Assembly (NCBI RefSeq): GCF_002943425.1 | Contig: NZ_PTRA01000006.1 | Coordinates: forward strand, 248,001 to 312,000 | Reading direction: 5' to 3' | DNA from: Siphonobacter curvatus | Lineage (GTDB): Bacteria; Bacteroidota; Bacteroidia; Cytophagales; Spirosomataceae | DNA length: 64,000 nucleotides | In this document: positions 7,100 to 63,993 of the stretch, piece by piece | Position numbering within the stretch: position 1 is the first letter of the stretch | How the letters are laid out: each line of letters begins with the position of its first letter | The notes under the pieces: generated by a model | Database searches by the model: none | Told to the model about the DNA's origin: nothing | The model's input: only the letters and a program-made list of their open reading frames with translations | Position numbers and translations under genes: made by a program

Positions 7100-7182
7100 T
7101 TGTCTTTTTTTAAGATTGCAAATACGTTCTTCTTCAGAAGAATACCCTGGTAACGTCTATTATCTTGATTACCTGAAAAGGT

Positions 7183-7814: not shown

Positions 7815-7868
7815 GTAGCAGGAGAGAATAGGAAATGCATGGCATTTATAGCTATAAATCTGTCATTT

Positions 7869-8741: not shown

Positions 8742-8804
8742 TCATCGATTTATTGAAATGTTTGCTACATTACCTAAAACTTAACGCCTGCTTTCAAAAT
8801 CAGC

Positions 8805-28130: not shown

Positions 28131-29594
28131 CTATTTTTCCCACCAAACCTTTGTCATTACATCATCCCCACCCATCCGTTCGGCGGCAACTTTATAATTT
28201 TGAGGATTGAATCGCCGTACATCATTGTGGTACATGAATCGCGTGGGCATTACGCCATCGTGAAGCATATATTGCGTTTTGGGCAATTTAGGAAAACCCG
28301 TCCGGCGGTACTCAAACCACTGCTGGTAATCGTTGAAAAACAGGGCCAGATACTTTTGGGTCAGTACCTGTTCGAGCGTACCGTTAAATGCCGCCTTGGG
28401 ATTATTGAAATACGTGGCCGGAAATACACCGCCTTTCCATTGGGTAATCGCTGCTGCTACCCCTTTCTCGTAGGCCGTTTTAGCCGCCGCCTGATCGCCC
28501 GTTTGCAGAGCTACTTCGGCTTTGATGAACTCTACTTCGGCGTACGACATGATCACTTCAATGATTTCCGTACCTAGCGTGGTGTGTACCATTAAATCGG
28601 CATTGGGTGTACTGGGTTCGTAATCGACCTTCAGCTCATTGCGGGTCGGGTTGTGCCCACTGACAATGCCCTTGTATCCGATGTTGATTTCTTTTCCGTT
28701 TTCCACGCGTCGGGCGTTCGTCATAAACAGCGGTCGGCGGGGGTCTTCCAGTTCATTCAACAGATCAATGAAAAAAGCACTCATGGCCTCGGCGTTCGTA
28801 TAATCCTGCCGACGACCCCAGGCGTAATCGTACGGAGCCAAGCCTGTAATTTTAACTAAAGCGGCGTCGGCATTACTGGTGAAAATGGGATATTCGCTCG
28901 GATTCGCTAAAATAGCTTTCAGGCGTTCAAAGCTATTGAAACCGGTTTTTTTGCTCGTCCGAAGCAGCATTCGCAGTAAAAGTGAATTATTGAATTTCTG
29001 CCATTTGCTCTTGTCATTCCCGTACAGCAGATCGTTGCCCACCATCGTACCACTTTCCTTGTAGGTTTTATTAGCTTCTTCCAGTTTGGTAATCAGTGTA
29101 GCATATACCTGCTTCTGCTCATCAAAAACGGGCTGACTAAGGCCTTCCTCCGCGTTGAGTGCTTCCGTGTACGGGATGTCGCCAAAAGAATCCGTCAGAA
29201 TACCGACGATGTACGCCTCAAGCGTCGTAGCGACCGCCTGATAGATAGGTTGCTGATAAATTTCGGCGGCTTCTTTCATTTCCCGCACGTTACGCAGCCA
29301 GGTGTAGCAAGTATTCCAAGTACCATTCCCCGCCGTTTCACTTACGTTGTAATGGTGTACACCATAGCCCTCACTATTCTGAGCGTACGGTAAGCTGACT
29401 TGCATCAACTGGTTGGTAAAATCGCTATTGCGTACGGTAAAGTACGTACTCATGCCATACACAATCGGCGTGACCAAACTACCTGGTGTGACGCGATCAA
29501 TGCGGTTCGGATCGGTATTGAGTTCTTCGAAACCCGTGGTACAGGCAGTGGTCAGCAATCCCAGGGTCAGTAAAGAGAGAATGTATTTTTTCAT
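28131..29594 (-). CDS. SusD/RagB family nutrient-binding lipoprotein (pair 1)
   Basis: About 487 aa from the ATG at 29594; an in-frame ATG at 29609 would add five residues ahead of the signal peptide. Lipobox LLTTAC gives an outer-membrane lipoprotein. Helical TPR-like repeats and the terminal FRYNPQNYKVAAER-type end resemble SusD-like_2 (PF12771). It covers the SusC barrel and binds the incoming ligand. It follows the SusC gene by 22 bp. The ligand is not known; no glycosidase is in the same operon. Confidence 0.92.
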   Translation of the reverse strand: MKKYILSLLTLGLLTTACTTGFEELNTDPNRIDRVTPGSLVTPIVYGMSTYFTVRNSDFTNQLMQVSLPYAQNSEGYGVHHYNVSETAGNGTWNTCYTWLRNVREMKEAAEIYQQPIYQAVATTLEAYIVGILTDSFGDIPYTEALNAEEGLSQPVFDEQKQVYATLITKLEEANKTYKESGTMVGNDLLYGNDKSKWQKFNNSLLLRMLLRTSKKTGFNSFERLKAILANPSEYPIFTSNADAALVKITGLAPYDYAWGRRQDYTNAEAMSAFFIDLLNELEDPRRPLFMTNARRVENGKEINIGYKGIVSGHNPTRNELKVDYEPSTPNADLMVHTTLGTEIIEVIMSYAEVEFIKAEVALQTGDQAAAKTAYEKGVAAAITQWKGGVFPATYFNNPKAAFNGTLEQVLTQKYLALFFNDYQQWFEYRRTGFPKLPKTQYMLHDGVMPTRFMYHNDVRRFNPQNYKVAAERMGGDDVMTKVWWEK

Positions 29595-29616
29595 CGCTGT
29601 TTCGTCCAAATAAAAA

Positions 29617-32600: not shown

Positions 32601-32850
32601 ATCGGCCCTGAGCATTCGTCAGGTCAACGGCTTTATTATTCACCGAAATGGCAACACCTGGCAGCGGCTCGTTGCTGGTACGATCAATGACGGAACCTTG
32701 CAGGGTAAGCGGAGTACTTTGGGCCTGGACCTGTGAGCCCCAGCCCAGCAACACGGCATACAGACCCGCTAAAATTCCAAAACGCTTCAACAGCACAGGG
32801 AACAATGAGGTAGCGGGGCTTACGGAGCCGTAAGCTTTCTTTTCATTCAT
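29617..32850 (-). CDS. SusC/RagA family TonB-linked outer-membrane transporter (pair 1)
   Basis: A 1077-aa TonB-dependent receptor. After a signal peptide (to about residue 43) comes a CarboxypepD-regulatory-like Ig domain (TLQGSVIDRTSNEPLPGVAISVNN), a TonB box region (VVVTALGIKREEKALGYS), a plug domain and a C-terminal barrel ending in aromatic-rich strands (GVNLNLKL). This is the typical SusC order. It forms the energy-driven outer-membrane channel with the SusD lid. A possible promoter element TAACCTTG lies at 32900-32907 on the minus strand. Confidence 0.95.
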   Translation of the reverse strand: MNEKKAYGSVSPATSLFPVLLKRFGILAGLYAVLLGWGSQVQAQSTPLTLQGSVIDRTSNEPLPGVAISVNNKAVDLTNAQGRFELQVEVGSTIGFTFIGYQPHQFKAEKNDASLTVYLENGQKDLNEVVVTALGIKREEKALGYSVSTIKEDQLTQAMPNNWSDALKGKVAGLNILQSGSGPLNSARINLRGDRSLDPNKNEALVVIDGVPMINGKVSSGVDQAYGAGASGADKDIPIDFGNGLGDINPDDIESVTVLKGAAATALYGSRAGNGALIITTKSGKRKGKGVGVTVNSNFSINDVLRWPEYQYEYGQGSGAKYYSYGLSPDGSNTGSTSSAFGPKFDGQEYFQYDPVVEGQSPERRPWRPYKDNIKGFWRTGHTFTNNVAVEGGGENYSARASLTYTNNEWIMPNTGFDRLVASLNSSVSLSKRIKLNTKLSYTSKTSDNLPGTGYNNQSISYFMIFQNPNVDLAWYEPRWKKGQDQIQQIHPFSSFIENPYLIAYEMTNSLNSTNIIGNIQATYTLSPKWEFMIRSGLNSRQDRREQRRPWNTSNFPQGYYKQQDVAFLESNTDFLATYKSKLTRTIDLTASVGGNRMSSDVKQNNAVARGLLLPGVYKLSNALEQPIADNSLIQRKINSLYGLINLDWQNKIFVDITGRNDWSSTLPAGNNSYFYPSVSTSYVLSELMPLPTVISFAKARLSWAQVGTDTEPYRIAKYYDKSPFPGSANSPSILYNGTLKPEISTSWEAGLNVYLFKKRVNADVNFYSNTTVNQVLTVPMDITTGYSSAFINSGKVQNRGVEVMLSVQPVQSKNFNWTLTGTWSKNQNRILALSNDIESEQQIIASSGNASIIATKGGSTGDIWGFGLVRNPEGQVVFDAKTGLALRPADITKIGNAYADWRGGLQNEFSYKNLRLNVLLDGQFGGIVYSQTHHKMSEQGKLKHTLAGRETGTIVGQGVIRNADGSYAPNTTPVAISTWYGDYYRRANVETNSFDASYLKLREVRLEYNLPRSLVNRWKLSAASIGFFGRDLAMISKFPIFDPETASLNGATIVPGVEMGQLPTPRTWGVNLNLKL

Positions 32851-50830: not shown

Positions 50831-51595
50831 TCAATTGATTCCCTTCCGCTCATTTTCTTTTAAAAGAACACCCGTCAGTTGTAGCCGAAATGCCTCCTGC
50901 AACAGGTATAGTAACTTATCTACGGCTAATTCGATGGATAGGCCCTGGGGGCGGATGTTTGAGATACAGTTTCTTCGCTCATCCGTTAGGCCAGGCTTAG
51001 GGTCGAAGGTCAGATAGAGTCCCATGCTATTGAAGGAACTTAAGCCGGGTCGTTCGCCAATGAGTACGACCACCAGCCGGGCTCGTAGCAACTTTCCAAT
51101 TTCATCCCCAATCGCTACCCGCCCCTGTTCCACCAGACAGAGCGGAGCCAGTGAATAACCCCGTTCCCCCGCTTTCGTCCAGAAACGATCCAAAAAAGGC
51201 TCCGCGTTTTCCGTAAGGGCCGTTGCGGAAAGGCCATCTGCTATGACTACAGCAACATCGACCGGATTCGCATGCAGGGCTTCCAGCAACTGTACCGACT
51301 CTTCATGCAGCTTACGACCCAGATCGGGCCGTTGCAGGTACTGATCCCGGTGAAGTGCCTGCGTTTTCAGGGTGTACACGGGCATCCCGTACTTCTGCCA
51401 GCGAGTCGCCAAAGCCTGCGTATCAAGGCTAGAGTATACGGCATCTTTGGCATGAGCGTGAGCCAGCTTGAACGCTAGTGACTCCCGTAGGGGAATGGAA
51501 ACGCCGGTTTTGCCCAGGGCAATGCGAGCATCCGTAAACGTTTTCAGCGACGCCCATTCGTCGGGAGGTGTAGGGTATTTTTGAATTTCATTCAT
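50831..51595 (-). CDS. eutC: Ethanolamine ammonia-lyase small subunit EutC
   Basis: 254 aa, close to the usual length. The VADGLSATALTENA and IGERPGLSSFNSMGLYLTF segments, and the C-terminal KLLYLLQEAFRLQLTGV, match EutC. With EutB it forms the adenosylcobalamin-dependent enzyme that turns ethanolamine into acetaldehyde and ammonia. Bacteroidota usually have eutC directly after eutB; here a 624-bp repeat-rich gap separates them, though the order and strand are retained. No EutA reactivase gene is nearby. Confidence 0.93.
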   Translation of the reverse strand: MNEIQKYPTPPDEWASLKTFTDARIALGKTGVSIPLRESLAFKLAHAHAKDAVYSSLDTQALATRWQKYGMPVYTLKTQALHRDQYLQRPDLGRKLHEESVQLLEALHANPVDVAVVIADGLSATALTENAEPFLDRFWTKAGERGYSLAPLCLVEQGRVAIGDEIGKLLRARLVVVLIGERPGLSSFNSMGLYLTFDPKPGLTDERRNCISNIRPQGLSIELAVDKLLYLLQEAFRLQLTGVLLKENERKGIN

Positions 51596-51633
51596 TAGAT
51601 AAAAGGTTTAGTGTATATCGTAACAGTTCTGTT

Positions 51634-52131
51634 CTACTCTCGTCGACACGGCTGGTCTTTTAGGTCGTATGTATTCCAAGCGGGGCATTCCATACTGAAA
51701 TCTGTTAATAATCCACTAGTAATATAAAATCAGTATCTCGTCCTACTGAGACGGCTGATCATTTAGTCCGTATGCATTCCATGCCGGGCATCGCATGCGG
51801 GGCATCCCATGCCGGCACGCCCACCGCTCTTTTCATCCTGCTCCGTGCCACCGCGTTGCGGATGAAGCCGCCATGGAATGGAAGGCGGCTTTTCGCGATA
51901 GGACGGGGGCTGGTTTTATGCTGTCCACTATACTAACTCGCCAATAACTCACAACCATCAACTATTACTGGAAGATGAAAACCTCTCCCGCCCCTGAGCC
52001 ATTCCATGGGGCCACCATGGAATGGCAACGGAACGACCTACGACAGCCGCAATAAGGTGGCCTAAAGCGGGCCGGTCGCCGCCATGGAATGATCAGGCGT
52101 GGAGAGGTCCTGCCTGGAAGGCTCAGGGGCT
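51634..52131. repeat. Repeat and palindrome-rich non-coding block between eutB and eutC
   Basis: The 51596-52219 gap has no gene but many related elements. A ~46-bp imperfect direct repeat occurs at about 51645-51690 and 51749-51794, each ending near a GCATTCCA motif. AAGCCGCC/GGCGGCTT (51865-51872 with 51884-51891) is a terminator-like hairpin. GCCATTCCATGG (51999-52010) mirrors 52016-52027. GCCCCTGAGCC (51990-52000) pairs exactly with 52120-52130, and CCTCTCC (51983-51989) with GGAGAGG (52101-52107). CCATGGAATG recurs at 51871, 52016 and 52083. The block is probably a transcribed, structured RNA or a small mobile repeat. Confidence 0.7.
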
Positions 52132-52219
52132 ACCGAACAGCCGTGCTTAAAGGACCAAACGCAGTCTAGGTGAATAACGAGGTATCTATACTCTGAAACA
52201 TAATTTACACTTACTCTCT

Positions 52220-53599
52220 TTAAGAAGACTTCATCAAAAGCTCATACATCCGTTCAGAAATGCCTTTTTTCAGCTGTCCTGTATCCAGAATTCCCTGCCG
52301 CAGCAGCCACGCTTCGAATTCGGGAGCGGGCCGGAGTCCCAGCGTCCGGCGGAGGTACAGGGCATCGTGAAAGGACGTAGACTGGTAATTCAGCATAATA
52401 TCATCGGCACCAGGTACCCCCATGATGAAATTCACGCCCGCCACACCGAGCAGCGTCAACAGCGTATCCATATCATCCTGATCCGCCTGAGCGTGGTTGG
52501 TGTAGCAGATGTCCATGCCCATGGGTAAACCCAGCAGTTTCCCGCAAAAATGGTCTTCGAGTCCGGCTCGTATAATCTGTTTTCCGTCGAAGAGGTACTC
52601 CGGACCGATGAATCCGACCACTGAGTTCACCATAAAAGGTTTAAAATGACGGGCCACTGCATAGGCACGGGCTTCGCAGGTTTGCTGATCCACGCCGTGG
52701 TGACTTTGGGAAGACAATGCACTGCCCTGACCCGTTTCGAAATACATAACATTCGTACCGACCGTACCCCGATTCAGCGACAGTCCCGCCTCGTAAGCTT
52801 CCTGCAAAAGACCCAGCGAAATCCCAAAACTGGCATTCGCCTGCTCGGTGCCAGCAATGGATTGAAAAATCAGATCCACCGGAACGCCCTGCTGGATGAG
52901 TTCCAGCGTCGTGGTCACGTGACTCAGTACGCAGCTTTGGGTGGGCATTTCGAACCGCTCGCGTAGGCCATCGAGCATGTACAGCAAGCGGGAAACAGTA
53001 GTCGGACTATCCGTAGCCGGATTAATGCCGATGACCGCATCGCCACTGCCGTAGAGTAATCCATCGATGATGCTGGCGGCAATGCCCTTGGCGTCGTCGG
53101 TGGGGTGATTGGGCTGTAAGCGTACGGATAGATGGCCTTTTAAACCTAGCGTATTCCGAAATCGCGTAATGACTTCACACTTCTGAGCCACCAGAATCAA
53201 ATCCTGATTTCGCATCAGTTTGGATACGGCGGCCACCATTTCGGGCGTCAGAGCCGGGGCAATCTCTTGGAGTTGTAGCGTGTCAGCGTCGTCGCTTAGT
53301 AGCCAGTCGCGTAAATCACCCACGGTAAAATGATGAATACGAGCAAAAACCTCCGCCAGATGCGTATCCACTATCAGCCGCGTCACTTCATCCCGTTCAT
53401 ATGGAACTACCGCTTCGTTCAGAAAAGTCGGTAAAGGTACCTCGGCCAGGGCCATCTGAGCGGCAATGCGTTCTTCATAGCTTTCAGCCGCCAATCCCGC
53501 CAGCTGGTCACCCGACCGGAGCGGACTTGCCTTGGCCAGCAGTTCCCGCAGGGAAGGGAACCGGTACGTAAATCCCCGGATGGTAAAATGGTAGCTCAT
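52220..53599 (-). CDS. eutB: Ethanolamine ammonia-lyase large subunit EutB
   Basis: 459 aa, the catalytic TIM barrel. The SVRLQPNHPTDD, VIGINPATDSPT and YFETGQGSALSS segments correspond to the known substrate-binding residues of EutB (an Arg-x-Gln, an Asn and a Glu), so it should be active with adenosylcobalamin. It lies 23 bp after the permease gene, which would import ethanolamine. There is no microcompartment gene in the window, so acetaldehyde would be released in the cytosol. Confidence 0.95.
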   Translation of the reverse strand: MSYHFTIRGFTYRFPSLRELLAKASPLRSGDQLAGLAAESYEERIAAQMALAEVPLPTFLNEAVVPYERDEVTRLIVDTHLAEVFARIHHFTVGDLRDWLLSDDADTLQLQEIAPALTPEMVAAVSKLMRNQDLILVAQKCEVITRFRNTLGLKGHLSVRLQPNHPTDDAKGIAASIIDGLLYGSGDAVIGINPATDSPTTVSRLLYMLDGLRERFEMPTQSCVLSHVTTTLELIQQGVPVDLIFQSIAGTEQANASFGISLGLLQEAYEAGLSLNRGTVGTNVMYFETGQGSALSSQSHHGVDQQTCEARAYAVARHFKPFMVNSVVGFIGPEYLFDGKQIIRAGLEDHFCGKLLGLPMGMDICYTNHAQADQDDMDTLLTLLGVAGVNFIMGVPGADDIMLNYQSTSFHDALYLRRTLGLRPAPEFEAWLLRQGILDTGQLKKGISERMYELLMKSS

Positions 53600-53622
53600 A
53601 GGAAAATCGTGGTTTCATTCAG

Positions 53623-54918
53623 TTAAAGGGCTTTCCTCCGGCTTCGACGCAGGCGGAAGCCGTAGCCCAGTAATAAAACCAGCAGTCCGCCAAAAAACAG
53701 CAGGGCCAGTGGCCAGTAAAAATACGCCATCGCAATCAAAGCCAGGGTAGCCAGACCCAGGGCAATTGCCGGGAAATACGGATACAAGGGAGCCCGAAAC
53801 GGACGGTTCAGTCTGGGTTCGGTCCGGCGAAGCTGAAACAGAGCCAGCATACTGATGATATAGACCACCACGGCTCCAATGGTTGAAAGAATGACAAGCT
53901 TACTGGTATCCAGCACCAGTAGAGCAGTCATCCCCAACACAGCCCCCACGAGTAACGCAACGTATGGTACCCGACGTCGGGAACTGACCAAGGCCAGAGA
54001 AGCGGGCAGGTATTCCTCACGGGCCAGGGCGAAGAGTTGTCGCGAATAACTAATGATGATGCCGTGAAAGGAAGCAATCAGCCCAAACAGGCCGACGCTG
54101 GCAAAAAGCTTCGTCAAGGGATTTTCCCGTCCTAGAATCAAGGCAATGGACTCGGGTAGCGGATAATCGATGGTGCTCAGGTTTTCCCAATGCGTCACGC
54201 CGCCTATACTGATCATAACGCCTAAAGCCAGCAACGCAAGTGTCAACAAAGCGGAAATGTATCCTCGAGCTAAGGCCCGATTGGTATCTTTCACTTCTTC
54301 GGCCACCATGGCAATACCTTCCAGACAAACAAACAGCCAGATCGCGAATGGTAAAGCCGCAAATACGCCCGCCCAGCCATACGGAAACGGACGATACAGG
54401 AACGTTTGCAGGTCGAAATGCGGCAGTACGACCCCCAGAAACACGAGCAGTTCGGCAATGGCGAGGAGCGTCATAATCAGCGAAAACCAAGCCGCTTCCT
54501 CAACCCCCAGCAAATTGATCGCTGTGAACAAAGCGTACGAAGCCAGCGAGGCCGGAATGACGGCAATACCAGGATAAAGAAAGTGAACGTAACTACCCAG
54601 AGCCAGAGCAATGGCGGGCGTCGCGAACAGGAATTCGATAAGGGTAGCGTATCCGGCAATGATGGCTCCCCAGGGGCCAAAGGCCTTAAGAGCGTAGGCA
54701 AAAGGCCCACCGGCCTGCGGAATGGCCGTGGTGAGTTCGGTAAAGCTAAAAATGAAGGTCACGTACAGCAACGTGATAAGAAGCGTAGCCAGCAGCAGGC
54801 CCAGCGTTCCGGCCACGCCCCAGCCGTAATTCCAGCCAAAGTATTCGCCCGAGATGACCAGTCCCACGCCAATGGCCCAGACGTGTACAGCCGTCAGAGC
54901 TTTCTTTAATTCTGCCAT
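53623..54918 (-). CDS. eat: Ethanolamine permease (Eat family, APC superfamily)
   Basis: A 431-aa integral membrane protein with about 12 helices. The N-terminal HVWAIGVGLVISGEYFGWNYGW is the hallmark of ethanolamine permeases of the amino-acid/polyamine/organocation superfamily. The frame is open further upstream (to 54987) but the ATG at 54918 fits the family. It heads the eutBC transcript. The divergent phosphonate operon starts 269 bp away. Confidence 0.9.
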   Translation of the reverse strand: MAELKKALTAVHVWAIGVGLVISGEYFGWNYGWGVAGTLGLLLATLLITLLYVTFIFSFTELTTAIPQAGGPFAYALKAFGPWGAIIAGYATLIEFLFATPAIALALGSYVHFLYPGIAVIPASLASYALFTAINLLGVEEAAWFSLIMTLLAIAELLVFLGVVLPHFDLQTFLYRPFPYGWAGVFAALPFAIWLFVCLEGIAMVAEEVKDTNRALARGYISALLTLALLALGVMISIGGVTHWENLSTIDYPLPESIALILGRENPLTKLFASVGLFGLIASFHGIIISYSRQLFALAREEYLPASLALVSSRRRVPYVALLVGAVLGMTALLVLDTSKLVILSTIGAVVVYIISMLALFQLRRTEPRLNRPFRAPLYPYFPAIALGLATLALIAMAYFYWPLALLFFGGLLVLLLGYGFRLRRSRRKAL

Positions 54919-55128
54919 GTTCAATAGGATTAAGGGAAGAAAAGGGAAGATAGGTTTTTCTGGACAAAAGCGGAAGGGATTGGGCAAGGAATCCCTGAGT
55001 CTTTGCTCGATACGTAACCATTCAAAGCATTGGCGGCACGAACGCAGGGCATCAGGTGCGGAAGTACAAAGCTGAATCTGTAATCAGACGGGTACGAAAA
55101 CCAATCTTAATGATTCGGTAACAATTCC

Positions 55129-55162
55129 TTTGTTTACAAATAATAAACACTGTTTACTATTG
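55129..55162 (+). promoter_or_regulatory. Putative promoter and operator of the phosphonatase-like operon
   Basis: TTTG (55129-55132), 22 nt, then TACTATTG (55155-55162), a 7 of 8 match to TAnnTTTG. Between them TGTTTA (55131-55136) and TAAACA (55143-55148) form an inverted repeat, and TGTTTAC recurs at 55151-55157, 20 bp from the first copy. This is a plausible operator for the nearby XRE-cupin regulator. Confidence 0.45.
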
Positions 55163-55187
55163 TATTCGTAACCCAATCACTCTAAAC

Positions 55188-55859
55188 ATGGCAATCAAGT
55201 TAGTAGTATTTGATATGGCGGGAACGACCGTCTACGATGAAAACCACGTAAGTCAGGCCTTGCAAAAGGCCTTGCAGAAACACGGCTTTTCGTTTTCGCT
55301 GGAAAGCATTAATCCCCTAATGGGCTATAAAAAGCCCCTGGCGATCCGGATGTTATTGAACGAAGCAGGAGCCGAGATTACGGATACGCTGATCGATCAG
55401 ATTCACGAAGATTTTGTGCGGGACATGCTAACCTTTTACCAGACGTCGACCGACCTGCGAGCCCTGCCCGACGTCGAAGAAACCTTCCTCCGACTTCGGC
55501 AGGCTGGGATCAAAGTGGGTTTGGATACGGGTTTCTCCCGGGATATTGCCGAAGTGATTGTGCAGCGTCTCGACTGGCAGGATGCCATTGATCACCTCGT
55601 AGCCAGCGACGAAGTTGCCAATGGCCGTCCGTACCCGGACATGATTTACCAGACCATGCAAACCCTGGGCATCACGCACACCGAAGAAGTAGCCAAAGTC
55701 GGCGATACGGAAGTCGACATGAACGAGGGCCGAAATGCGGGTTGCCGGTACGTCGTTGGCGTGACAACGGGGACGTTTACGCGGGAGGAACTTCTCCAGT
55801 ACGAGCCCACCCATACGGTTGATTCGGTGGCTGAGGTGGTAGACATTGTTCTGGCCTGA
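55188..55859 (+). CDS. Phosphonatase-like HAD hydrolase (PhnX-like, TIGR03351 type)
   Basis: A 223-aa HAD hydrolase. DMAGTT at residues 9-14 is the phosphonatase variant of the HAD nucleophile motif (Asp9). Lys49 in MGYKKP lines up with the Schiff-base lysine of PhnX (MGLLK). ANGRPYPDM has Arg in place of the usual Lys before motif IV, as in PhnX, and KVGDTEVDMNEGRNAG is the final motif. It therefore probably cleaves the C-P bond of phosphonoacetaldehyde or a close analogue to phosphate and an aldehyde. The DUF5690 gene starts 10 bp downstream. Confidence 0.9.
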   Translation: MAIKLVVFDMAGTTVYDENHVSQALQKALQKHGFSFSLESINPLMGYKKPLAIRMLLNEAGAEITDTLIDQIHEDFVRDMLTFYQTSTDLRALPDVEETFLRLRQAGIKVGLDTGFSRDIAEVIVQRLDWQDAIDHLVASDEVANGRPYPDMIYQTMQTLGITHTEEVAKVGDTEVDMNEGRNAGCRYVVGVTTGTFTREELLQYEPTHTVDSVAEVVDIVLA

Positions 55860-55869
55860 TACTCCTGGT

Positions 55870-57165
55870 ATGACTACCCTATCGCGTAAGCGGGTAACCC
55901 CTTCCTGGCTGGTTTCACTGGTGGCCGGACTAGCCGCCTTTGGGACGTACAGCTGCATGTACGCTTTCCGGAAAGCTTTTACGGCGGGTACTTACAGCAC
56001 GTTACAGCTGGGTCCGCTGGATTATAAAGTCTGGTTGATTCTGGCTCAGATGCTGGGGTACACGTTGAGTAAATTTTACGGAATCCGGTTTCTGGCCCAG
56101 CGTCGGCCGCAACAACGCATCCCTACCCTGATTGCGTTGCTGAGTATGGCCGGGCTGGCGTTGCTGGGTTTTGCCCTGTGTCCCGTGCCGTATAACATCG
56201 TATTTCTGTTTTTGAACGGACTGCCCCTGGGCATGATCTGGGGTCTAGTTTTTTCTTTTCTGGAAGGCCGACGGCATACGGAACTCATGGGGGCCGTCAT
56301 GGCGATCAGTTTGATTTTTGCTTCGGGACTGGTGAAAACGGTGGGACTTCTACTCATTCGCTGGGGAGGAATATCGGAATTCTGGATGCCCTTTCTGACT
56401 GGACTGGTCTTCAGTGTACCGTTGGCGGGATGTCTTTACGTATTGTCGCAGATTCCGGCCCCGAGTGCCGAAGACAAACGTCTGCGGACCGAACGGCGAC
56501 CCATGAACCGAACCCAACGCCGTTTGTTCATTCGGCAATTCCTACCCGGTATTGTTTTGACGGTTCTGGTCTACACGCTGCTTACAGTGGCTCGGGACAT
56601 CCGCGACAATTTTGAAGTAGAAATCTGGCAACGATTAGGTTACGGCAATCAGCCCGGCATTTATACGCAGGTAGACGGCCCCGTGGCGTTGAGCGTACTG
56701 CTGTTACTGAGCTTACTGATTCTGGTTCGGAATAACCTGAAAGCCTTTTCCCTGATCCATCTGATGATCATCGGGGCTTGTCTCTTAATGGGTTTTGCTA
56801 CCCTGGCCTACAACGCCGGACAGCTAAGCGGTCTCCACTGGATGGCCCTGAGTGGGCTGGGTCTGTACCTGGCGTATGTGCCCTACAACGCTATTTTCTT
56901 CGAACGCATGCTGGCCACTTTTCGGGAAAAGGGCAATGTCGCCTTCGTGATGTCCCTGGCCGATTCGTTTGGGTATCTGGGCAGCGTGGGCGTGCTTTGC
57001 CTGAAAGAATTCAGTCAGGAGGGCCTTTCCTGGGGCCAGTTTTACAACCAGATTTTACTTTTCGTAGCCTTAAGTGGAGCCGTACTGGCTCTGGCTTCGC
57101 TCTACTATTTCCGTAAAAAACATTCGATACCTTCCGTTTCTTATCCAGCACTGGTTCATGACTAA
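55870..57165 (+). CDS. DUF5690 multi-pass membrane protein, MFS-like
   Basis: A 431-aa inner-membrane protein with about 12 hydrophobic segments and an MFS-like pattern (TYSCMYAFRKAFTAGTY, then LFLNGLPLGMIWGLVFSFLEGRR). The DUF5690 family frequently accompanies phosphonatase-like genes, so it is a likely transporter for the aminophosphonate or its product. That is an inference from context. It overlaps the FAD oxidoreductase gene by 8 bp. The in-frame ATG at 55846 would overlap the HAD gene and is not preferred. Confidence 0.8.
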   Translation: MTTLSRKRVTPSWLVSLVAGLAAFGTYSCMYAFRKAFTAGTYSTLQLGPLDYKVWLILAQMLGYTLSKFYGIRFLAQRRPQQRIPTLIALLSMAGLALLGFALCPVPYNIVFLFLNGLPLGMIWGLVFSFLEGRRHTELMGAVMAISLIFASGLVKTVGLLLIRWGGISEFWMPFLTGLVFSVPLAGCLYVLSQIPAPSAEDKRLRTERRPMNRTQRRLFIRQFLPGIVLTVLVYTLLTVARDIRDNFEVEIWQRLGYGNQPGIYTQVDGPVALSVLLLLSLLILVRNNLKAFSLIHLMIIGACLLMGFATLAYNAGQLSGLHWMALSGLGLYLAYVPYNAIFFERMLATFREKGNVAFVMSLADSFGYLGSVGVLCLKEFSQEGLSWGQFYNQILLFVALSGAVLALASLYYFRKKHSIPSVSYPALVHD

Positions 57166-58300
57166 ATCTGCAATTATAATTGGAGCCGGCATCGTTGGTC
57201 TGGCTACCGCCCGGGCTCTGGCTCTTCGGGGTTATCAGGTAAGCGTTTTTGATCGCAGCGAACGGGCCGTCGGGGCTTCCATCCGCAATTTTGGTATGAT
57301 CTGGCCCATTGGTCAACCCGAAGGAGCCTTGTACGAACGGGCACTCCGTTCGCGAAGCATCTGGACGGAGGTATTGCAGCGGTCCGGTTGCTGGTACAGT
57401 CAGCAGGGAAGCCTGCACATGGCCTATCACGCGGACGAATGGACAATATTGCAGGAATTTAAAGAAGCCAGTCAGCCGACCCGCCCGCTGGCCTTACTGT
57501 CGCCCGAACAAACCCGCGAACGTTCATCCGTCGTACGGCCTGCGGGACTATTGGGTTCCTTATACTCCGCCGATGAAATGATTGTCGATCCCCGGCAGGC
57601 CATCGGTAGCATTCCATCCTATCTGGCCGAACAGTATGGCGTAACTTTTCACTGGAATACGGCCATCAGTCAGATTACGTACCCCAGCGTCTGGTCCGGC
57701 AAACGGCAATGGTCTGCCGACGAAATTTACGTGTGCAGCGGCGTTGATTTCGAAACCCTGTACCCGGAAGCCTTTGCCGAAGCCCCCATTACCAAGTGTA
57801 AAGTACAAATGCTGCGGCTCGAAGCTCAAAACGGGGACATCGGTCCTTCCCTGTGCGGGGGCCTATCCCTGATTCACTACAAGGGCTTTCTCAGTGCTCC
57901 TTCGCTGCCCCGGTTACTGGAACGTTACCAGCGGGAAAAAAGCGAGTATATGCAATGGGGCATTCACGTGATGGCTTCACAAAATGGGTTAGGCGAGATT
58001 ACGGTAGGCGATTCGCATGAATACGGCCTGACGTTTGATCCTTTCGACCGGACGGCGGTCAATGCCCTGGTGCTCGACTATCTGCGTACCTTCACTACCT
58101 TCCTCTCCTATCAGATTCAGCAGACCTGGCACGGTATCTATCCCAAACATTCGCAAGGTAAAACTGAGTGGGTCACCTCTCCGGAGTCTGGAGTTACGGT
58201 GATCAACGGTCTGGGTGGTGCGGGCATGACGCTTTCGTTTGGATTATGTGAAGCGGTGGTGGCCGGAACCTATCAACCCCTCGAAGTGGTGCATTCCTAA
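57158..58300 (+). CDS. FAD-dependent oxidoreductase, TIGR03364 type
   Basis: A 380-aa DAO-type flavoenzyme. The FAD-binding GAGIVG is at residues 9-14 (Rossmann), and VINGLGGAGMTLSFGL near the C-terminus completes the FAD site. The family is syntenic with phosphonatase-like hydrolases and is thought to deaminate oxidatively an aminophosphonate close to 2-aminoethylphosphonate. Here the two would act in series: oxidation to the aldehyde, then C-P cleavage. The start at 57158 overlaps the end of the DUF5690 gene, which indicates tight coupling. Confidence 0.9.
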   Translation: MTKSAIIIGAGIVGLATARALALRGYQVSVFDRSERAVGASIRNFGMIWPIGQPEGALYERALRSRSIWTEVLQRSGCWYSQQGSLHMAYHADEWTILQEFKEASQPTRPLALLSPEQTRERSSVVRPAGLLGSLYSADEMIVDPRQAIGSIPSYLAEQYGVTFHWNTAISQITYPSVWSGKRQWSADEIYVCSGVDFETLYPEAFAEAPITKCKVQMLRLEAQNGDIGPSLCGGLSLIHYKGFLSAPSLPRLLERYQREKSEYMQWGIHVMASQNGLGEITVGDSHEYGLTFDPFDRTAVNALVLDYLRTFTTFLSYQIQQTWHGIYPKHSQGKTEWVTSPESGVTVINGLGGAGMTLSFGLCEAVVAGTYQPLEVVHS

Positions 58301-58301
58301 T

Positions 58302-58360
58302 ACATCAAACATAAAAAGACTCCCAGGCTATTGGCTTGGGAGTCTTTTTATGTTTGATGT
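58302..58360. terminator. Very long perfect-stem bidirectional terminator
   Basis: A perfect 24-bp stem (58302-58325 with 58337-58360) encloses an 11-nt loop; A/T runs inside the stem give terminator signals on both strands. It begins 2 bp after the FAD oxidoreductase stop codon and also faces the XRE-cupin gene from its downstream side. Confidence 0.92.
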
Positions 58361-58431
58361 ACCAATCCCTAGAAAAGCTACAATGGCTCGGCTAAGGGGT
58401 ACTAACCAGTGAATCTCTTTTCGTACCTGAG

Positions 58432-59010
58432 TTACCGCTGATCAAAGAAGTACACAATCAACATCTGGCAGGATTGCCGGCCGGTATTACGGGGCAGGTG
58501 GGGTAGGCGGCCATCGAAAAACAGAGCATCCCCCGCTTCCAGGAGATACGACTGCCCGTTGATGAGGTAATCAACCTGGCCTCTCAAAATGTATTTCAGC
58601 TCAAAAGCTTCGGTTCTCACTTCTTCGCGTTGCGAATGCGGAGCCAGTTCCAGCAGCACGACATCGACGGTCGAGGCGGCCATACTCCGGGTTAAAATGC
58701 GTTGGTACTGAAAGCCGTGGGCATCTTCCTTTTCAAAGGCCTCGAAGGAATCTTTCTTCTGAACCAGTACGACCGGTTCGCTAAGTTTTAAATCTTCAAA
58801 AAATTCTCCTACTTCAATATTCAGGGATTGAATGATCTGAAATAATACCGGCAGTGAAGGAATACTACGGCCATTTTCGATCTGTGAAATCAGCCCTTTA
58901 CTAACGCCTGCCCGATCGGCAAGCTCCTGTACCGTAAGGCGTTGATTGGTTCTTCGTTCTTTAATACGGCGGCTTACTTCTACTAAAAACGCTCCTTCCA
59001 TAATCATCAT
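58432..59010 (-). CDS. XRE family regulator with C-terminal cupin
   Basis: A 192-aa regulator. Residues 10-65 hold a helix-turn-helix_3 domain (LTVQELADRAGVSKGLISQIENGRSIPSL), and residues 110-190 a cupin_2 sensor (AFELKYILRGQVDYLINGQSYLLEAGDALFFDGRLPH). XRE-cupin proteins commonly sense small amines, alcohols or organophosphonates and control nearby catabolic genes. Its neighbours on both sides, the phosphonate operon and SusCD pair 2, are candidate targets. An ATG at 59001 is an alternative start. Confidence 0.9.
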   Translation of the reverse strand: MMIMEGAFLVEVSRRIKERRTNQRLTVQELADRAGVSKGLISQIENGRSIPSLPVLFQIIQSLNIEVGEFFEDLKLSEPVVLVQKKDSFEAFEKEDAHGFQYQRILTRSMAASTVDVVLLELAPHSQREEVRTEAFELKYILRGQVDYLINGQSYLLEAGDALFFDGRLPHLPRNTGRQSCQMLIVYFFDQR

Positions 59011-59122
59011 TCAACTGGTAGACAGGTTCGAAGATAGGGCTCATTTGCTAAGCTCTACGTCATTTGCTGGCTTTTCTGGAAAACCCCGGTCAGGCATTCC
59101 GTACTAACGTTTAAAAATAAAC

Positions 59123-59150
59123 GGGGCCTGCCCCGTGTGGAGCAGGCCCC
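59123..59150 (-). terminator. Terminator of the SusCD pair 2 operon
   Basis: GGGGCCTGC (59123-59131) pairs with GCAGGCCCC (59142-59150), with T-rich sequence beyond it on the minus strand. It lies 9 bp past the SusD stop codon. Confidence 0.8.
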
Positions 59151-59159
59151 AAGATGGGC

Positions 59160-60722
59160 TTATTTCAATACCCAGAGTTCATCTTTTACATTGTCCTGCG
59201 TGGCTGAACCAAACTGTCGTTGCAGAGCTTCGCGGTAATTGGTTTCGTTGTACAACCGATCCGAAACCGGATACTGCCAGCGACGGGGAATACCCCGTGT
59301 ACCAATGCCAGCTCCCTGAGTAGCGAAGTTGTCGGGATAGCCCGTTCGCCGCCAATTGAAGAAGGGTTCGATACCCGAGGTCATGAACATGGCCAGGTAT
59401 TTCTGATTCAGAATCTGCTTGCGGCCTTCGGTAGTGTTACCGGCATACTTCACCAGCGACTGGCCCAGGTACGCCGTCGGATCGAAGCTGATGGTAAAGG
59501 ACTGTGACGTGGCTACGCCCGCATTCCGGATTTCAAAAACTACGGTGTTCGTTCCATTTTTGATGCCAAAGAAATCCATGTTGGCCAGAATGCCTTTCTG
59601 GTAGTAATCGGCGGCATCACCCGTTGCCCAGCCCAGGTTAATGGCTTCGGCAATGTTGAACGATTGCTCGGAATAACCCAGAATAACCGTTGGTTCGGGC
59701 GTGTAACCTTTGTAATAGCGATTCCGGTTGATGAAGGAGTACTCCCCATTGTTGGCTCCCGTCGACATTACATCCAGACTCAACGCCGGACTCGGAGCTA
59801 TGAACGCCGCAAAATCCGTGGCTTTCACTCCTTTTTTGAGTTGAGCTTCGGCGGGTTCGGCGGTTACGAACAGACGCGGATCCTGGTAGCGTTTCAGTAG
59901 TTCCACGTGCGTCGCCGACATTTCCTGACGGGTCGCGTCGTTCCCGAAGTTATCCGGATTGATGGGATATTTGTTGTAAACGGCGTTGTACACAAACTGC
60001 AGGTTATCCGCATTACCCGTAAACAGGGGAAATTTTGTAGGATTAGCTACTACTTCAGAAAAGCGGGTTTTTACCTTCAAATCGGCATCGTCGGTACGCT
60101 TACTCAGGTTGATCAGTACGCGAAGTTTAAACGCATTAACCACTTTCTGCCAGGAATTCAGGCTGTTGTTGAGGTAAATATCACCTTTCAGGGGTAGCGT
60201 AGCCTGACCAGCGGCCTGTAAACTCCCCAAATCCGTGTTGGCTTCGTCCAGCCAGGTCAGCACCTGTAGGTAGATGTCCTTCTGCGTATCGTAGCGAGGT
60301 GTAATGTTCGCTTCTCCCTGCAGGGCGTCTTTCAGGGGTACATCGCCCACCCGCTGGGTCATCCAAAACCAGAAGTAGGCCCGGAAAAATTTACCTAGTG
60401 CAGCGTACGCATTTTTATCGGTCGAGAGGTTTTTCTTGGCCTCTTCTTCCATTTTCAGGACATTTTTCAGCGTCGTGTACCGCAAATCCGACGTCGTCCA
60501 GTCGTACTCGTTGTTGCCGTAATAGTTGTAATTGACGGTGTAATACTGATTGTACCGGGCATCCTTGTTCCAGGTCCCTTCATACATATCCATCAGGATG
60601 TCCTTCAGTACTAGATCAGCTGGTACCTGTACGGGCAGGTTGGGATTTTTTTCGAGTTCTTCGAATTTCTGGCAGCTTCCCAGGCTCAGCAGCAGTACCA
60701 GACTATAGAGTATCTTTTTCAT
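59160..60722 (-). CDS. SusD/RagB family nutrient-binding lipoprotein (pair 2)
   Basis: A 520-aa outer-membrane lipoprotein. Lipobox LGSC (signal MKKILYSLVLLLSLGSC) and TPR-type helices typical of SusD-like_2 are seen (AYFWFWMTQRVGDVPLKDAL, NQKYLAMFMTSGIEPFFNWRRTGYP). It forms the lid of the SusC channel, 22 bp away. With the ethanolamine and phosphonate genes nearby, a head-group-bearing ligand is a hypothesis; the sequence does not identify it. Confidence 0.93.
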   Translation of the reverse strand: MKKILYSLVLLLSLGSCQKFEELEKNPNLPVQVPADLVLKDILMDMYEGTWNKDARYNQYYTVNYNYYGNNEYDWTTSDLRYTTLKNVLKMEEEAKKNLSTDKNAYAALGKFFRAYFWFWMTQRVGDVPLKDALQGEANITPRYDTQKDIYLQVLTWLDEANTDLGSLQAAGQATLPLKGDIYLNNSLNSWQKVVNAFKLRVLINLSKRTDDADLKVKTRFSEVVANPTKFPLFTGNADNLQFVYNAVYNKYPINPDNFGNDATRQEMSATHVELLKRYQDPRLFVTAEPAEAQLKKGVKATDFAAFIAPSPALSLDVMSTGANNGEYSFINRNRYYKGYTPEPTVILGYSEQSFNIAEAINLGWATGDAADYYQKGILANMDFFGIKNGTNTVVFEIRNAGVATSQSFTISFDPTAYLGQSLVKYAGNTTEGRKQILNQKYLAMFMTSGIEPFFNWRRTGYPDNFATQGAGIGTRGIPRRWQYPVSDRLYNETNYREALQRQFGSATQDNVKDELWVLK

Positions 60723-60744
60723 TGCGTGATTGCTAGGAAATCCG

Positions 60745-63700
60745 TTAAAAAATCAGGTTGATGTTTACCCCGTACCGACGCGTAGTGGGCGTTTGCAGGC
60801 TCGATCCCCTATCTGAGTAGCTAACAAACTGCTCGACATCAAGGTCCTTCTTCTCAGCCCAGTACAGCAGGTTACGACCTACGAACGAAATGCTGGCCGA
60901 TTTCACAAAACCTAAACGACCCTGTAATACCTGACTCGGGATCTGGTACCCGAATGTCACTTCGCGAAGCTTCACAAAGCTCCGGCTAATCATGTTGGCT
61001 TCGTTGGTGTTGTAGTAACGGCTGATCCAATCCTGAAGGTAGGTTTTATTGGCGTCCGACATGGGTGAGAAACTCAGCGATTCAAAGTTGGTGATGTTTC
61101 CATCCACATCGTACTGGATGTTTCCGTTAGTCAGTACCACCCCAGGACCTACCCAGGAAGCTACCCCTTTGTAATCCTGGTAGCGGGCTTCACCCATCTT
61201 TCCCTGTACCGTTTCGATATGACGACCGCCCCGGAAGGTTTGTTTCTGGATGTAATCCTCGATTACGCCCCCTACGCGACCATCGACCTGTACGTTCAGG
61301 AAGAAATTGCGGTAGTTGAATTTGTTGATGAACCCGAAAGCAAAGTCGGCATTAGTATAACCGAGGAATTGATTCACGGGATTAACCACGGGTCGTCCGC
61401 TTGCGTCATTAATGATTTGTCCTTCGCGGGTACGGGCAAAGGCCGATCCGTAATAGGCATCCAGACGGTCGCCCACTTTATAAAACTGGTTGAGTCGCGT
61501 TTGTGAACCGTAAATTTCTTTCAGGTACTCCTGAAACGTACTCCAGTTCAGCGTTACATCCCAGTTCAGACCACGGGCACTTTTCAGGGCCGTACCCGTC
61601 AGGGCGATTTCTAGACCGCGTTTCTGCGATTTAATTCCGTTGGTGGTCAGGGAAGAATACCCCGTAGCTTCGGGCAGGGTCAGGCCAAAAATACGCGGAC
61701 CGTCGAGGTAGCTGAAGTACGCGACGTCCAGACCGATCCGGTTTTTGAGGAAGCGTACATCCAGACCCGCTTCAAAACTCGTCCGTGAAGAAGGTTTCAG
61801 GTTAGGATCCACCAGAGCGTTGGCATAACTGGCTGCGGCTTCGTTGTTGTACGGACGACTGATCGTATAAGCAACCGTCGTTCCGTACGAAGGTCCCTCG
61901 TAGGGTGAAGCAAAGGTCTGACCATAACCCAGGGGGTTGCTACCATCCAGGGGAGAGAACGCCGTATACACGTTCTGCTGCGTAAAGGCCTCTTTTACGT
62001 TGGCGTACGAAGCCCGCAATTTCACAAAAGAAATGGCCGCAGGAGTCCGAACATAATCCGATACTACCGTGCTCACCCCGGCTGACGGGTAGAAATATAC
62101 GTTCTTGTCCGAGGGCAAGGTAGAGTTTTTATCCCAACGACCCGTCGTCGAAAGCGTTGCATAACGACCCAGGTTCACGTCGACGCTGTACAGGGCACTC
62201 AGTACCTGCATCCGGGAGTTGAAGCTGTTCGCCCGCGTGGGGTTCAGGGAGTTGTCGAAGGTATAAACGCCCGGCACACTCAGGTAATCCGTTGAAGCGT
62301 AGTTGCTGTTATACCGGAAAAAACGTCCCGAAAAACCACCCACAGCCCGCAGGCTGATGCCATGAGCAAAGGTTTTGTTATAGTTCAGCAATACGTCGGT
62401 ATTGTTTTCCAATAAGGAACGGCGGTCTTCGCGGTAATCTCCCTTCGCTTGCTCCCGTCCGTACGTGGTGGCCGAATACGGCATTTTTTCATTCCGGAAC
62501 AATTCGTAACCTGTCACCTGCGTACGAGCCTGTAGTTCCAGGTTTTTCAGCAGATCGAATTTCATCAGGGCGTAGCCATTGTACGTATTGTTGTAGTGCC
62601 CCCGCAACCATTCTTTTGCCACAAACCAGGGGTTGTTGTAGCGTTGGTATTCGGCGTAAATCTGCTGGATACCTTCCTTGCCGGGCTGCCAGAGTTGCTT
62701 CATGTCATCGACATTCCAGTCAGCTCCCGCCCAAATCACGGTGTTATAAATCAGGGAGTTCGGACCGTAATTTACATCCGGGTAATTGGCCGAAGCCTGA
62801 CGACTGAAGTTAAAATTCGACTCAAAACGAACGCGGTCGGAAATGTTCTGACCCAGCGTTGCACTGAAGGTAGTACTATTCAGACTGGTATTCGGCACCA
62901 TACCTTTCTGGTACTGATTGGTGATCCCGAAACGTAAATCCGTTTTACCGGAAGTTGCCGAAATGGCTACACTGTTGGTAGACAGGACGCCCGGACGCAG
63001 AAAACGCTTCAGGTTGTCTTTACCGCGAGCCACCCAGGGCGTAGGGATTCGCTTGCCGGTTTGCGGATCGATGGGGCTGTCGTACTGGGCAATCAGCTGA
63101 CCTTCGAATTTAGGTCCCCAGACGTCGTAATCGCCGTCGTTGAGTCCACCACCGCGACCATCGACGAAGGAATAGGTTCCTTTGTTTCCCGGACCGTACT
63201 CATCCTGTACTTTAGGAATGGCCAGAAAACCGTTTTCCGTCATCGTACTCGAATTGACTTCTACGGAAAACCCACGTTTGTCTTTCGAGCCTTTTTTGGT
63301 AGTAATGATGATGACGCCGTTCGTCGCCCGTGATCCGTACAGGGCTGAACCCGAGGGGCCTTTAATCACGTCATAGGACTCAATATCATCGGGATTGATG
63401 TTGTAGGTATCGGATACAATGGGTACCCCGTCTACCACGAACAAAGGGCGGCCACCCCGCAACAGTACCTGCGGAGCCCGCAGTAATTCCGCACTAGCAC
63501 CGATGTTCAGACCGGCCACTTTCCCCACCAGAGCGTTTACGGGGTTCGGTTCGCGGGCCTTCACCAGATCCTGGGCTTTAATCGTTTGCGTAGCGTAGGA
63601 AAGGTCCCGTTTCGCCTTAGTAATACCTAGCGAGGTAACCACTACTTCTTCCAGCAATCGCTGATCAGTAGCCAGTAATACGTCGATTTGAGTCCGGCTA

Positions 63701-63993
63701 CTAATGGCTTCTTCCTGCGTCGTATAACCGACAAAGGTGAAAATCAAGGTTTCGCTGCTCGCTGGGACTGCCAGACGATAGGTACCGTCGGCGTTGGTGG
63801 TTGTCCCCTGATTTGAATTTTTAACCCGTACGGCCACACCAGCCAGGGGCTGCTGGTCATCCTGGCCGCGTACGGTTCCGCTAAGCGTTCGGTCCTGAGC
63901 CTGGGAAGTCAGGGAAAAAAGTACCATCCATAAAGCGGTCAGCAACGAAAGATAACCCAATGATCGCTGCGGCTTCGGTAAAAGCTGTTTCAT
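60745..63993 (-). CDS. SusC/RagA family TonB-linked outer-membrane transporter (pair 2)
   Basis: A 1082-aa TonB-dependent receptor. The signal peptide ends near TSQAQ; then a CarboxypepD_reg-like domain (LSGTVRGQDDQQPLAGVAVRVKN), a TonB box region (VVVTSLGITKAKRDLSYA), a plug domain and a barrel ending VNINLIF. It is full length, with its start codon 7 bp from the window edge, so its promoter is outside. With the SusD lipoprotein it makes the outer-membrane uptake complex of the right-hand locus. Confidence 0.95.
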   Translation of the reverse strand: MKQLLPKPQRSLGYLSLLTALWMVLFSLTSQAQDRTLSGTVRGQDDQQPLAGVAVRVKNSNQGTTTNADGTYRLAVPASSETLIFTFVGYTTQEEAISSRTQIDVLLATDQRLLEEVVVTSLGITKAKRDLSYATQTIKAQDLVKAREPNPVNALVGKVAGLNIGASAELLRAPQVLLRGGRPLFVVDGVPIVSDTYNINPDDIESYDVIKGPSGSALYGSRATNGVIIITTKKGSKDKRGFSVEVNSSTMTENGFLAIPKVQDEYGPGNKGTYSFVDGRGGGLNDGDYDVWGPKFEGQLIAQYDSPIDPQTGKRIPTPWVARGKDNLKRFLRPGVLSTNSVAISATSGKTDLRFGITNQYQKGMVPNTSLNSTTFSATLGQNISDRVRFESNFNFSRQASANYPDVNYGPNSLIYNTVIWAGADWNVDDMKQLWQPGKEGIQQIYAEYQRYNNPWFVAKEWLRGHYNNTYNGYALMKFDLLKNLELQARTQVTGYELFRNEKMPYSATTYGREQAKGDYREDRRSLLENNTDVLLNYNKTFAHGISLRAVGGFSGRFFRYNSNYASTDYLSVPGVYTFDNSLNPTRANSFNSRMQVLSALYSVDVNLGRYATLSTTGRWDKNSTLPSDKNVYFYPSAGVSTVVSDYVRTPAAISFVKLRASYANVKEAFTQQNVYTAFSPLDGSNPLGYGQTFASPYEGPSYGTTVAYTISRPYNNEAAASYANALVDPNLKPSSRTSFEAGLDVRFLKNRIGLDVAYFSYLDGPRIFGLTLPEATGYSSLTTNGIKSQKRGLEIALTGTALKSARGLNWDVTLNWSTFQEYLKEIYGSQTRLNQFYKVGDRLDAYYGSAFARTREGQIINDASGRPVVNPVNQFLGYTNADFAFGFINKFNYRNFFLNVQVDGRVGGVIEDYIQKQTFRGGRHIETVQGKMGEARYQDYKGVASWVGPGVVLTNGNIQYDVDGNITNFESLSFSPMSDANKTYLQDWISRYYNTNEANMISRSFVKLREVTFGYQIPSQVLQGRLGFVKSASISFVGRNLLYWAEKKDLDVEQFVSYSDRGSSLQTPTTRRYGVNINLIF

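Follow-up and report, generated by a model that had tools for sequence, protein, structure and literature searches.

A probable aminophosphonate utilisation locus with its own SusCD pair beside a short ethanolamine operon in Siphonobacter curvatus

SusCD pairs that stand beside phosphonate genes are known in kind from two precedents. The passages of PMC8115612 on the PusCD complexes of Flavobacterium, which were defined by phosphate starvation, place them with phosphodiesterases, phosphonate enzymes and inner-membrane transporters in phosphate utilisation systems (PUS). In Maribacter forsetii, a SusCD pair is surrounded by an alkaline phosphatase, an FAD oxidoreductase and a phosphonatase-like hydrolase, with expression reported in a study of laminarin (PMC11345257), and the passage concerned gives no phosphonate interpretation. 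For the catabolic steps, the sections of PMC10590968 on Mariniblastus fucicola describe the oxidase PbfD2, which converts 2-aminoethylphosphonate (AEP) and N-methyl-AEP (M1AEP) to phosphonoacetaldehyde, and a PbfD2-PhnX route without PhnW; the characterised PbfD1 belongs to the TIGR03364 family (PMC10590968). Known AEP transporters are named in part of PMC8316502 as AepXVW, AepP and AepSTU, with AepP also present in the Bacteroidetes species Kriegella aquimaris. The account in PMC7901475 presents XRE-cupin proteins of Pseudomonas as local repressors at palindromes beside their own genes and E. coli PuuR as letting go of DNA on sensing putrescine. Here, I analysed a 64,000-nucleotide stretch of the 6.39-Mb genome of Siphonobacter curvatus (contig NZ_PTRA01000006.1, or C6:248001-312000; hereafter the window), whose last 13 kb consist of two modules, one with phosphonate-type and one with ethanolamine genes.

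Judged by its genes, module A (55.1-64.0 kb) is probably a locus for aminophosphonate utilisation that has its own SusCD pair and regulator, and it is best read as a variant of the reported phosphate utilisation systems. Module B (50.8-54.9 kb) is, by its family matches, a short ethanolamine operon without a reactivase. HAD, DUF5690 and FAD genes form a tight operon on the plus strand, and transcription on the minus strand runs in the order SusC, SusD, XRE-cupin; family models found every gene of both modules on the strand that the original prediction had given (Table 1). Module A resembles PUS as a cluster similar to a polysaccharide utilisation locus, with SusCD, phosphonate enzymes and a putative inner-membrane transporter (PMC8115612, in the passages on these systems). 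PUS are defined there by induction on phosphate depletion; for the window's locus, a local XRE-cupin regulator with an operator is proposed. It shares with the M. fucicola cluster, as described in that part of PMC10590968, an FAD oxidase and a PhnX-type hydrolase without phnW, and differs by the addition of SusCD, DUF5690 and the XRE-cupin gene and by a HAD protein that is nearest the PhnX-like group TIGR03351 and lacks His56. The Maribacter cluster has the same gene types round SusCD (PMC11345257, passage cited above). With the XRE-cupin repressors of Pseudomonas and PuuR (PMC7901475, the account cited above) the window's system has in common the domain layout, palindromic sites and metabolic genes as neighbours; its predicted half-site GTTTA and its presumed aminophosphonate signal set it apart. 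The window's locus, its operator and DUF5690 were not met in a limited literature search, the term DUF5690 occurring in no paper of the literature searched. What the analysis adds is the wider taxonomic pattern, the predicted DUF5690 fold, the predicted operator and the link to phospholipase C.

Recurrence was followed in two samples, 241 genomes from the window's order and a set of named loci; for the latter, named genomes were scanned with a DUF5690 alignment and the best 80 of at least 591 loci were taken. Most of the 80 come from Pedobacter, Mucilaginibacter or Chitinophaga; Dyella contributes three records and Lysobacter one. TIGR03364, the family of the FAD protein, was found in 60 order genomes, DUF5690 in 56, EutB in 52 and TIGR03351 in 56. 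FAD and HAD genes lay no more than 5 kb apart in 48 of the 54 genomes having both, and FAD and DUF5690 genes no more than 15 kb apart in 35 of 43. Neighbours were labelled initially by blastp of the window's proteins and nine representatives against mechanical open reading frames (ORFs) of at least 90 amino acids; this missed genes, such as EutB in locus L150, and the counts were consequently redone by six-frame tblastn. Across 59 FAD neighbourhoods (the congener G241 and 58 of the order's 61 FAD places, with L132, a place in the window's own genome, left out), HAD was present in 49, DUF5690 in 32, an HD protein in 27, XRE-cupin in 22 and SusD at 40% identity or more in 21; none had eut genes. 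The 80 named loci contained FAD in 63, XRE-cupin in 57, SusD at the same identity in 45, HAD in 42, a phosphonate HD oxygenase in 38, a PC-PLC-like phospholipase C in 23, PbfA in four, and EutB, EutC or permease in none; called ORFs gave 62, 53, 45, 41, 38 and 23 for FAD, XRE-cupin, SusD, HAD, HD and PC-PLC, respectively, and again no eut gene. Phosphodiesterase or phosphomonoesterase genes were present at the locus in many relatives.

The labels were compared with family models. Nineteen FAD relatives share only 25-29% identity with the window's protein, and all ten that were checked exceeded the TIGR03364 cut-off. A representative HD protein reached 213.9 bits on TIGR03276 (phosphonate HD oxygenase; cut-off 214.6), a representative class-III aminotransferase in locus L087 is PbfA (NF049939, 731 bits, cut-off 525), and five of five phospholipases checked were phosphocholine-specific phospholipases C (PC-PLC, TIGR03396; 777 to 804 bits, cut-off 580). 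Overall, the counts support the recurrence of HAD, DUF5690, FAD, XRE-cupin and one SusD lineage as a set in the order and in Pedobacter, Mucilaginibacter, Chitinophaga and others.

The SusD protein was used as the marker of the importer. With the window's SusD as query, 40 places in the 241 order genomes reached 43% identity and eight fell below; 26 of the 40 but none of the eight lay within 15 kb of FAD, HAD or DUF5690, and TIGR03364 was present in 35 of the 38 genomes that carry the lineage. A tree of 82 SusDs, midpoint-rooted and with only two background sequences, grouped the 66 high-identity SusDs in one clade (support 0.997), with three eut-linked SusDs and one PC-PLC-adjacent SusD as its sister (support of the joint group 1.0). 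These results support the view that this SusCD lineage belongs with the phosphonate genes, a grouping that the original prediction had made. Its further proposal that SusCD takes up the source was upheld for phosphonate as far as co-location goes, and found no support where it had the pair shared with ethanolamine.

Some SusCD pairs of the lineage stood in other company. In the Chitinophaga loci L193, L196, L202, L206 and L208, SusCD (56-57% SusC identity) lies directly beside DUF5690 with phosphonate enzymes not in view; the core unit may thus consist of the importer plus the permease, or these loci may serve another substrate. In L239, L240, L241 and L244, all from one genus of the family, the pair lies away from phosphonate genes and adjoins a gene that looks, by eye, like DNA polymerase I, and ORFs of ~575 and ~666 amino acids. 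The window itself has a second SusCD pair at 28131-32850. One of its neighbours is a protein with a Por secretion tail, a GH127 arabinofuranosidase lies farther along, and the whole resembles an ordinary polysaccharide locus.

The regulator's best NCBIfam match was PuuR, at 61 bits and thus below the cut-off of 211. The palindrome GTTTA-N7-TAAAC was found upstream of nine of 66 XRE-cupin genes, whereas in eight shuffles no palindrome of this type exceeded three; AAGAA-N1-TTCTT was another palindrome above the null in this discovery set (7/66). The 80 named loci (1.63 Mb) contained 89 exact copies of GTTTA-N7-TAAAC, 83 of which stood upstream of a module gene at a distance of 220 bp or less and were spread over 46 loci, and 19 permuted half-sites gave at most two copies so placed. 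Assigned to the nearest gene, 32 copies belonged to SusC, 25 to HAD and 19 to DUF5690, while XRE-cupin accounted for four and FAD, HD and PbfA for one apiece, so that most were not at the genes used for motif discovery. Most of the 46 loci belong to two genera, Mucilaginibacter (20) and Pedobacter (16), which makes the counts non-independent. Of 17 copies in 60 loci from the window's order, ten were upstream of module genes (controls at most two). Palindrome and XRE-cupin gene co-occurred both in the named loci (40/13/6/21, p 9e-6) and in the order loci (8/14/1/37, p 9e-4).

The window's only exact copy (Table 1) ends 39 bp before the HAD start and lies 213 bp from the permease start, and a copy occupies the same place in the congener locus L135. 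A further site with one mismatch, identical in the congener, lies 110 bp before the SusC start, just past the window (C6:312104-312120). The regulator would bind the exact site, and the operator is predicted from its distribution to join importer and catabolism in one regulon, including in the cultured genera Pedobacter and Mucilaginibacter. As a genome-wide marker the palindrome was rejected: with two mismatches allowed, the window contained no more matches than shuffles, and the own genome had 12 exact places compared with six for a reversed control, so that the motif has little meaning without context. A second phosphonate locus was also considered in L132 (C1:3416000-3432000), which at 6058-8867 has an HD protein akin to the phosphonate HD oxygenase, an XRE-cupin gene and DUF5690, with HAD and FAD not in view. 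It was discarded, as the HD protein scored 117.5 bits against the TIGR03276 cut-off of 214.6 and no exact palindrome was present.

The chemistry was judged from the HAD and FAD proteins. The best PDB match of the HAD protein was PhnX (2iof), and its nearest solved structures are phosphonoacetaldehyde hydrolases of the B. cereus type. In an alignment of the window's protein with 90 homologues from the fetched loci (at least 30% identity, 200-300 amino acids), the PhnX positions Asp12, Lys53, Thr126, Arg160, Asp186 and Asp190 were kept in 91 of 91 sequences. D9 and K49 of the window's HAD are the counterparts of Asp12 and Lys53, which I take to be the catalytic nucleophile and the Schiff-base lysine of PhnX. 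On PhnX proper (TIGR01422) the HAD protein was far below the cut-off (133.4 vs 220 bits); the cut-off of the PhnX-like family TIGR03351 was reached in only five of the 56 order genomes that match it. The FAD protein was well above the TIGR03364 cut-off, its next relatives being ThiO and MnmC. By gene content, the FAD/HAD pair fits the PbfD2-PhnX route.

DUF5690 is predicted to be a 12-helix transporter of the major facilitator superfamily (MFS). An AlphaFold2 model built from 53 sequences had a mean pLDDT of 92 and twelve long helices, and in a Foldseek comparison with the PDB the top seven of 329 matches (E ≤0.001) were all human SLC37A4, the glucose-6-phosphate transporter. GlpT ranked 45th, and TM-scores were ~0.6, with similar values for other MFS carriers. 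The model thus resembles the organophosphate:phosphate antiporters (SLC37A4, GlpT) in fold, but DUF5690 lacks significant sequence similarity to them. Searches with the single sequence and against NCBIfam returned chance matches only, and hhalign against E. coli GlpT aligned a short, unrelated stretch at E 0.096. A local alignment with GlpT scored 55 (shuffles 42 ± 6, the largest 66), or about two standard deviations above the shuffled mean; in it, a conserved Arg-Lys pair in helix 1 of DUF5690 is placed opposite an Arg-Lys pair of GlpT. Membership of the antiporter family proven by sequence was consequently rejected, and the kinship stays at the level of the fold. The likeness of DUF5690 to AepXVW, AepP and AepSTU, described in part of PMC8316502 as inner-membrane AEP uptake systems beside catabolic genes, is one of proposed role.

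From these parts, a working order of steps can be proposed. SusCD would import an aminophosphonate-bearing molecule (a head group, an ester, a small glycan or a lipid fragment) across the outer membrane, and a phospholipase C or phosphodiesterase, which would be encoded elsewhere in this genome and within the locus in many relatives, would free the aminophosphonate. The DUF5690 protein may then move it over the inner membrane, where M1AEP or AEP would be deaminated by the PbfD-like oxidase. The product, phosphonoacetaldehyde, would be split by the PhnX-like HAD into acetaldehyde and phosphate, and a PhnW transaminase would not be needed on such a route. The XRE-cupin protein would repress both the catabolic operon and SusCD at GTTTA-N7-TAAAC until a compound of the pathway is sensed. 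Substrate, direction of transport, repression and the order of steps are thus what I infer from gene content, conserved co-location, motif distribution and a predicted fold.

Several observations weigh against reading module A as an aminophosphonate locus. The HAD protein is 2.5 bits short of the TIGR03351 cut-off; PhnX His56, presumably a catalytic residue, is kept in none of the 91 aligned HADs (Ala, Val or Gly, with Ala in the window), and Tyr128 is replaced by Phe in 83, so that the substrate could differ. The DUF5690 profile had no match among solved structures up to E 10, only 36 of 56 order genomes have DUF5690 no farther than 15 kb from FAD or HAD, and a phosphonate enzyme is missing from the called ORFs in 14 of the 80 named loci. 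Ten ORFs scanned at 49.2-64.0 kb included no phosphodiesterase, phosphomonoesterase or phospholipase C, and the window ORFs scanned included no PhnW, which was not searched genome-wide. Fourteen of the 40 lineage SusDs are farther than 15 kb from FAD, HAD or DUF5690; three of these are on contigs shorter than 8 kb, five adjoin an HD, phosphoesterase-type or XRE-cupin label (one weak, at 27% identity), and nine, four of them from one genus, have no labelled phosphonate, phosphoesterase or XRE-cupin neighbour. Lastly, related loci are non-independent samples, and the set used for motif discovery overlaps the set used for counting. The HAD results, together with the breadth of the FAD superfamily and its neighbours ThiO and MnmC, would suit a pair that acts on another amine and a phosphate ester, with the phosphonate label an annotation artefact. 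I regard this as rather unlikely, given that the Schiff-base lysine is invariant, that TIGR03276 HD oxygenases and the PbfA of L087 occur in the same neighbourhoods, and that TIGR03364 includes an enzyme shown to be active on M1AEP and AEP (PMC10590968, in its section on these oxidases). It is more improbable still that SusCD stands beside phosphonate genes by chance in genomes rich in such pairs. The distant lineage SusDs would agree with this, as would the loci that have another SusCD type (26-36% identity) and the many that have none; but a single, well-supported SusD clade recurs, the 26 nearby SusDs compare with a chance expectation that I estimate from genome size at well under one, and SusC is the gene with most copies of the same predicted operator.

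The original prediction had gone further and joined both modules in one locus that scavenges ethanolamine and AEP-like head groups of the same lipids through one SusCD pair, both yielding acetaldehyde. This I consider unlikely. The divergent operons do share a 269-bp intergenic region that holds the operator, PC-PLC adjoins eut genes in some relatives and phosphonate genes in others, phosphonate-linked and eut-linked SusDs are sister groups in the small tree, and the layout is kept in a congener. EutB and TIGR03364 also co-occur in 26 of the 241 order genomes where 12.9 are expected (Fisher p 8e-6, uncorrected for phylogeny). Yet EutB and FAD are within 30 kb of each other in only one of these 26, the window's own genome; with ~60 kb of 6.5 Mb counted as close, my arithmetic gives ~0.24 expected cases, and a single one is unsurprising. 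The congener, G243, has the same layout in a locus split over two contigs of mostly 92-94% identical DNA, and it is so similar that the shared layout was counted as one event. Within the genus, EutB is found in five of six genomes and the window's FAD type in two (the window's and G243), a third congener, G241, having the distant FAD type only. Seventeen other eut loci (the congener locus L135 excluded) contained one exact palindrome in all, inside an unrelated ORF, and no operator stood at the permease in the eight of the 17 in which a permease was seen. In the window, the operator is far closer to the hydrolase than to the permease, and the eut genes of three relatives come with a SusCD pair of their own. 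Joint scavenging was therefore abandoned as the principal explanation, since closeness is confined to one lineage and the 80 named loci have no eut gene; what stood of the co-occurrence on which the prediction had staked itself is that eut and phosphonate genes tend to share genomes, while the three-way locus with SusCD did not hold up in the related genomes outside the genus. The eut operon beside module A is best read as an accident of this lineage, with no coupling in evidence.

Table 1. Features of the two modules, in window coordinates. The starts of permease, DUF5690 and FAD are chosen in-frame ATGs; the mechanical ORFs begin farther upstream.
Feature	Position	Strand	Basis
EutC, ethanolamine ammonia-lyase small subunit	50831..51595	-	NF003971 304 bits (cut-off 230), PF05985
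eutB-eutC spacer, 624 bp, short direct and inverted repeats	51596..52219	.	longest ORF starting inside is 54 amino acids
EutB, ethanolamine ammonia-lyase large subunit	52220..53599	-	NF011649 719 bits (cut-off 554), PF06751
Ethanolamine permease	53623..54918	-	TIGR00908 483 bits (cut-off 381.75); ATG at 54918
Palindrome GTTTACAAATAATAAAC, proposed XRE-cupin operator of catabolic operon	55132..55148	+	GTTTA-N7-TAAAC
PhnX-like HAD hydrolase, proposed phosphonoacetaldehyde hydrolase	55188..55859	+	TIGR03351 216.4 bits (cut-off 218.9)
DUF5690, proposed inner-membrane aminophosphonate permease	55870..57165	+	PF18943 547 bits; AlphaFold2 model
FAD oxidoreductase, PbfD-like, proposed (N-methyl-)2-aminoethylphosphonate oxidase	57158..58300	+	TIGR03364 416 bits (cut-off 285.1)
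XRE-cupin regulator, proposed local repressor	58432..59010	-	HTH_3 (PF01381) and Cupin_2 (PF07883)
SusD-like lipoprotein, phosphonate-linked clade	59160..60722	-	PF12771/PF12741; co-location; tree
SusC, TonB-linked outer-membrane transporter	60745..63993	-	TIGR04056 451 bits (cut-off 368)

Module B has the three genes of the short ethanolamine operon (permease-eutB-eutC). EutA (PF06277) had no match in the whole genome, five of 14 control genomes being positive, which confirms and extends the earlier statement that the window lacks it. No microcompartment gene was found among the window ORFs scanned. Aldehyde dehydrogenase, also said to be missing, had no family match at E 0.001 in the 40 window ORFs scanned with Pfam, and the claim stands for these; the scan left out six window ORFs longer than 150 amino acids and all shorter ones, and no search for it covered the remainder of the genome. 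G+C content, checked for horizontal acquisition of module A, was even over 44-64 kb. The window's operon differs from the usual short form by its eutB-eutC spacer, which contains repeated CCATGGAATG/GGCATTCCAT-type words; a congener stretch aligns with the spacer along its length, and in several other relatives eutB and eutC adjoin.

Some relatives add PC-PLC and SusCD to this operon. The 18 eut neighbourhoods outside the window's genome included a permease in nine and EutC in 14, and six of the nine with a permease have PC-PLC just upstream (three assigned by model, three by clustering), three of them with SusCD as well. SusCD, PC-PLC, permease and EutBC occur together in L134, L137 and L138, and PC-PLC with eut in L133, L141 and L144; their gene content suggests that these six are phosphatidylethanolamine head-group loci. 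In L140, L143, L149 and L150, EutB was seen but no EutC could be recognised in the fetched stretch, and in L140 and L143 EutB lies beside an ORF of 871 amino acids. The PC-PLC of the window's own genome is on another contig.

A bolder and more tentative reading, which I find possible but doubtful, is that Bacteroidota have a family of lipid head-group loci, each combining a SusCD lineage, a secreted PC-PLC (TIGR03396), an inner-membrane permease and a short pathway to acetaldehyde. Its phosphonolipid branch would use DUF5690, PbfD and the PhnX-like hydrolase under an XRE-cupin repressor, and its sister branch, for phosphatidylethanolamine, the ethanolamine permease and EutBC; it is the bolder reading because the window's own locus is without PC-PLC. 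If it were true, DUF5690 would be a new family of aminophosphonate transporters, and the catabolic parts of the two branches would be neighbours in the window. Phosphonates are an important source of organic phosphorus, and their uptake by Bacteroidota is little described in the literature found. While arguing against the neighbouring eut operon as part of the phosphonate system, the analysis offers for such uptake a gene set with a SusCD importer, DUF5690 as a candidate inner-membrane carrier, a catabolic pair without phnW and a predicted operator that may tie them together.

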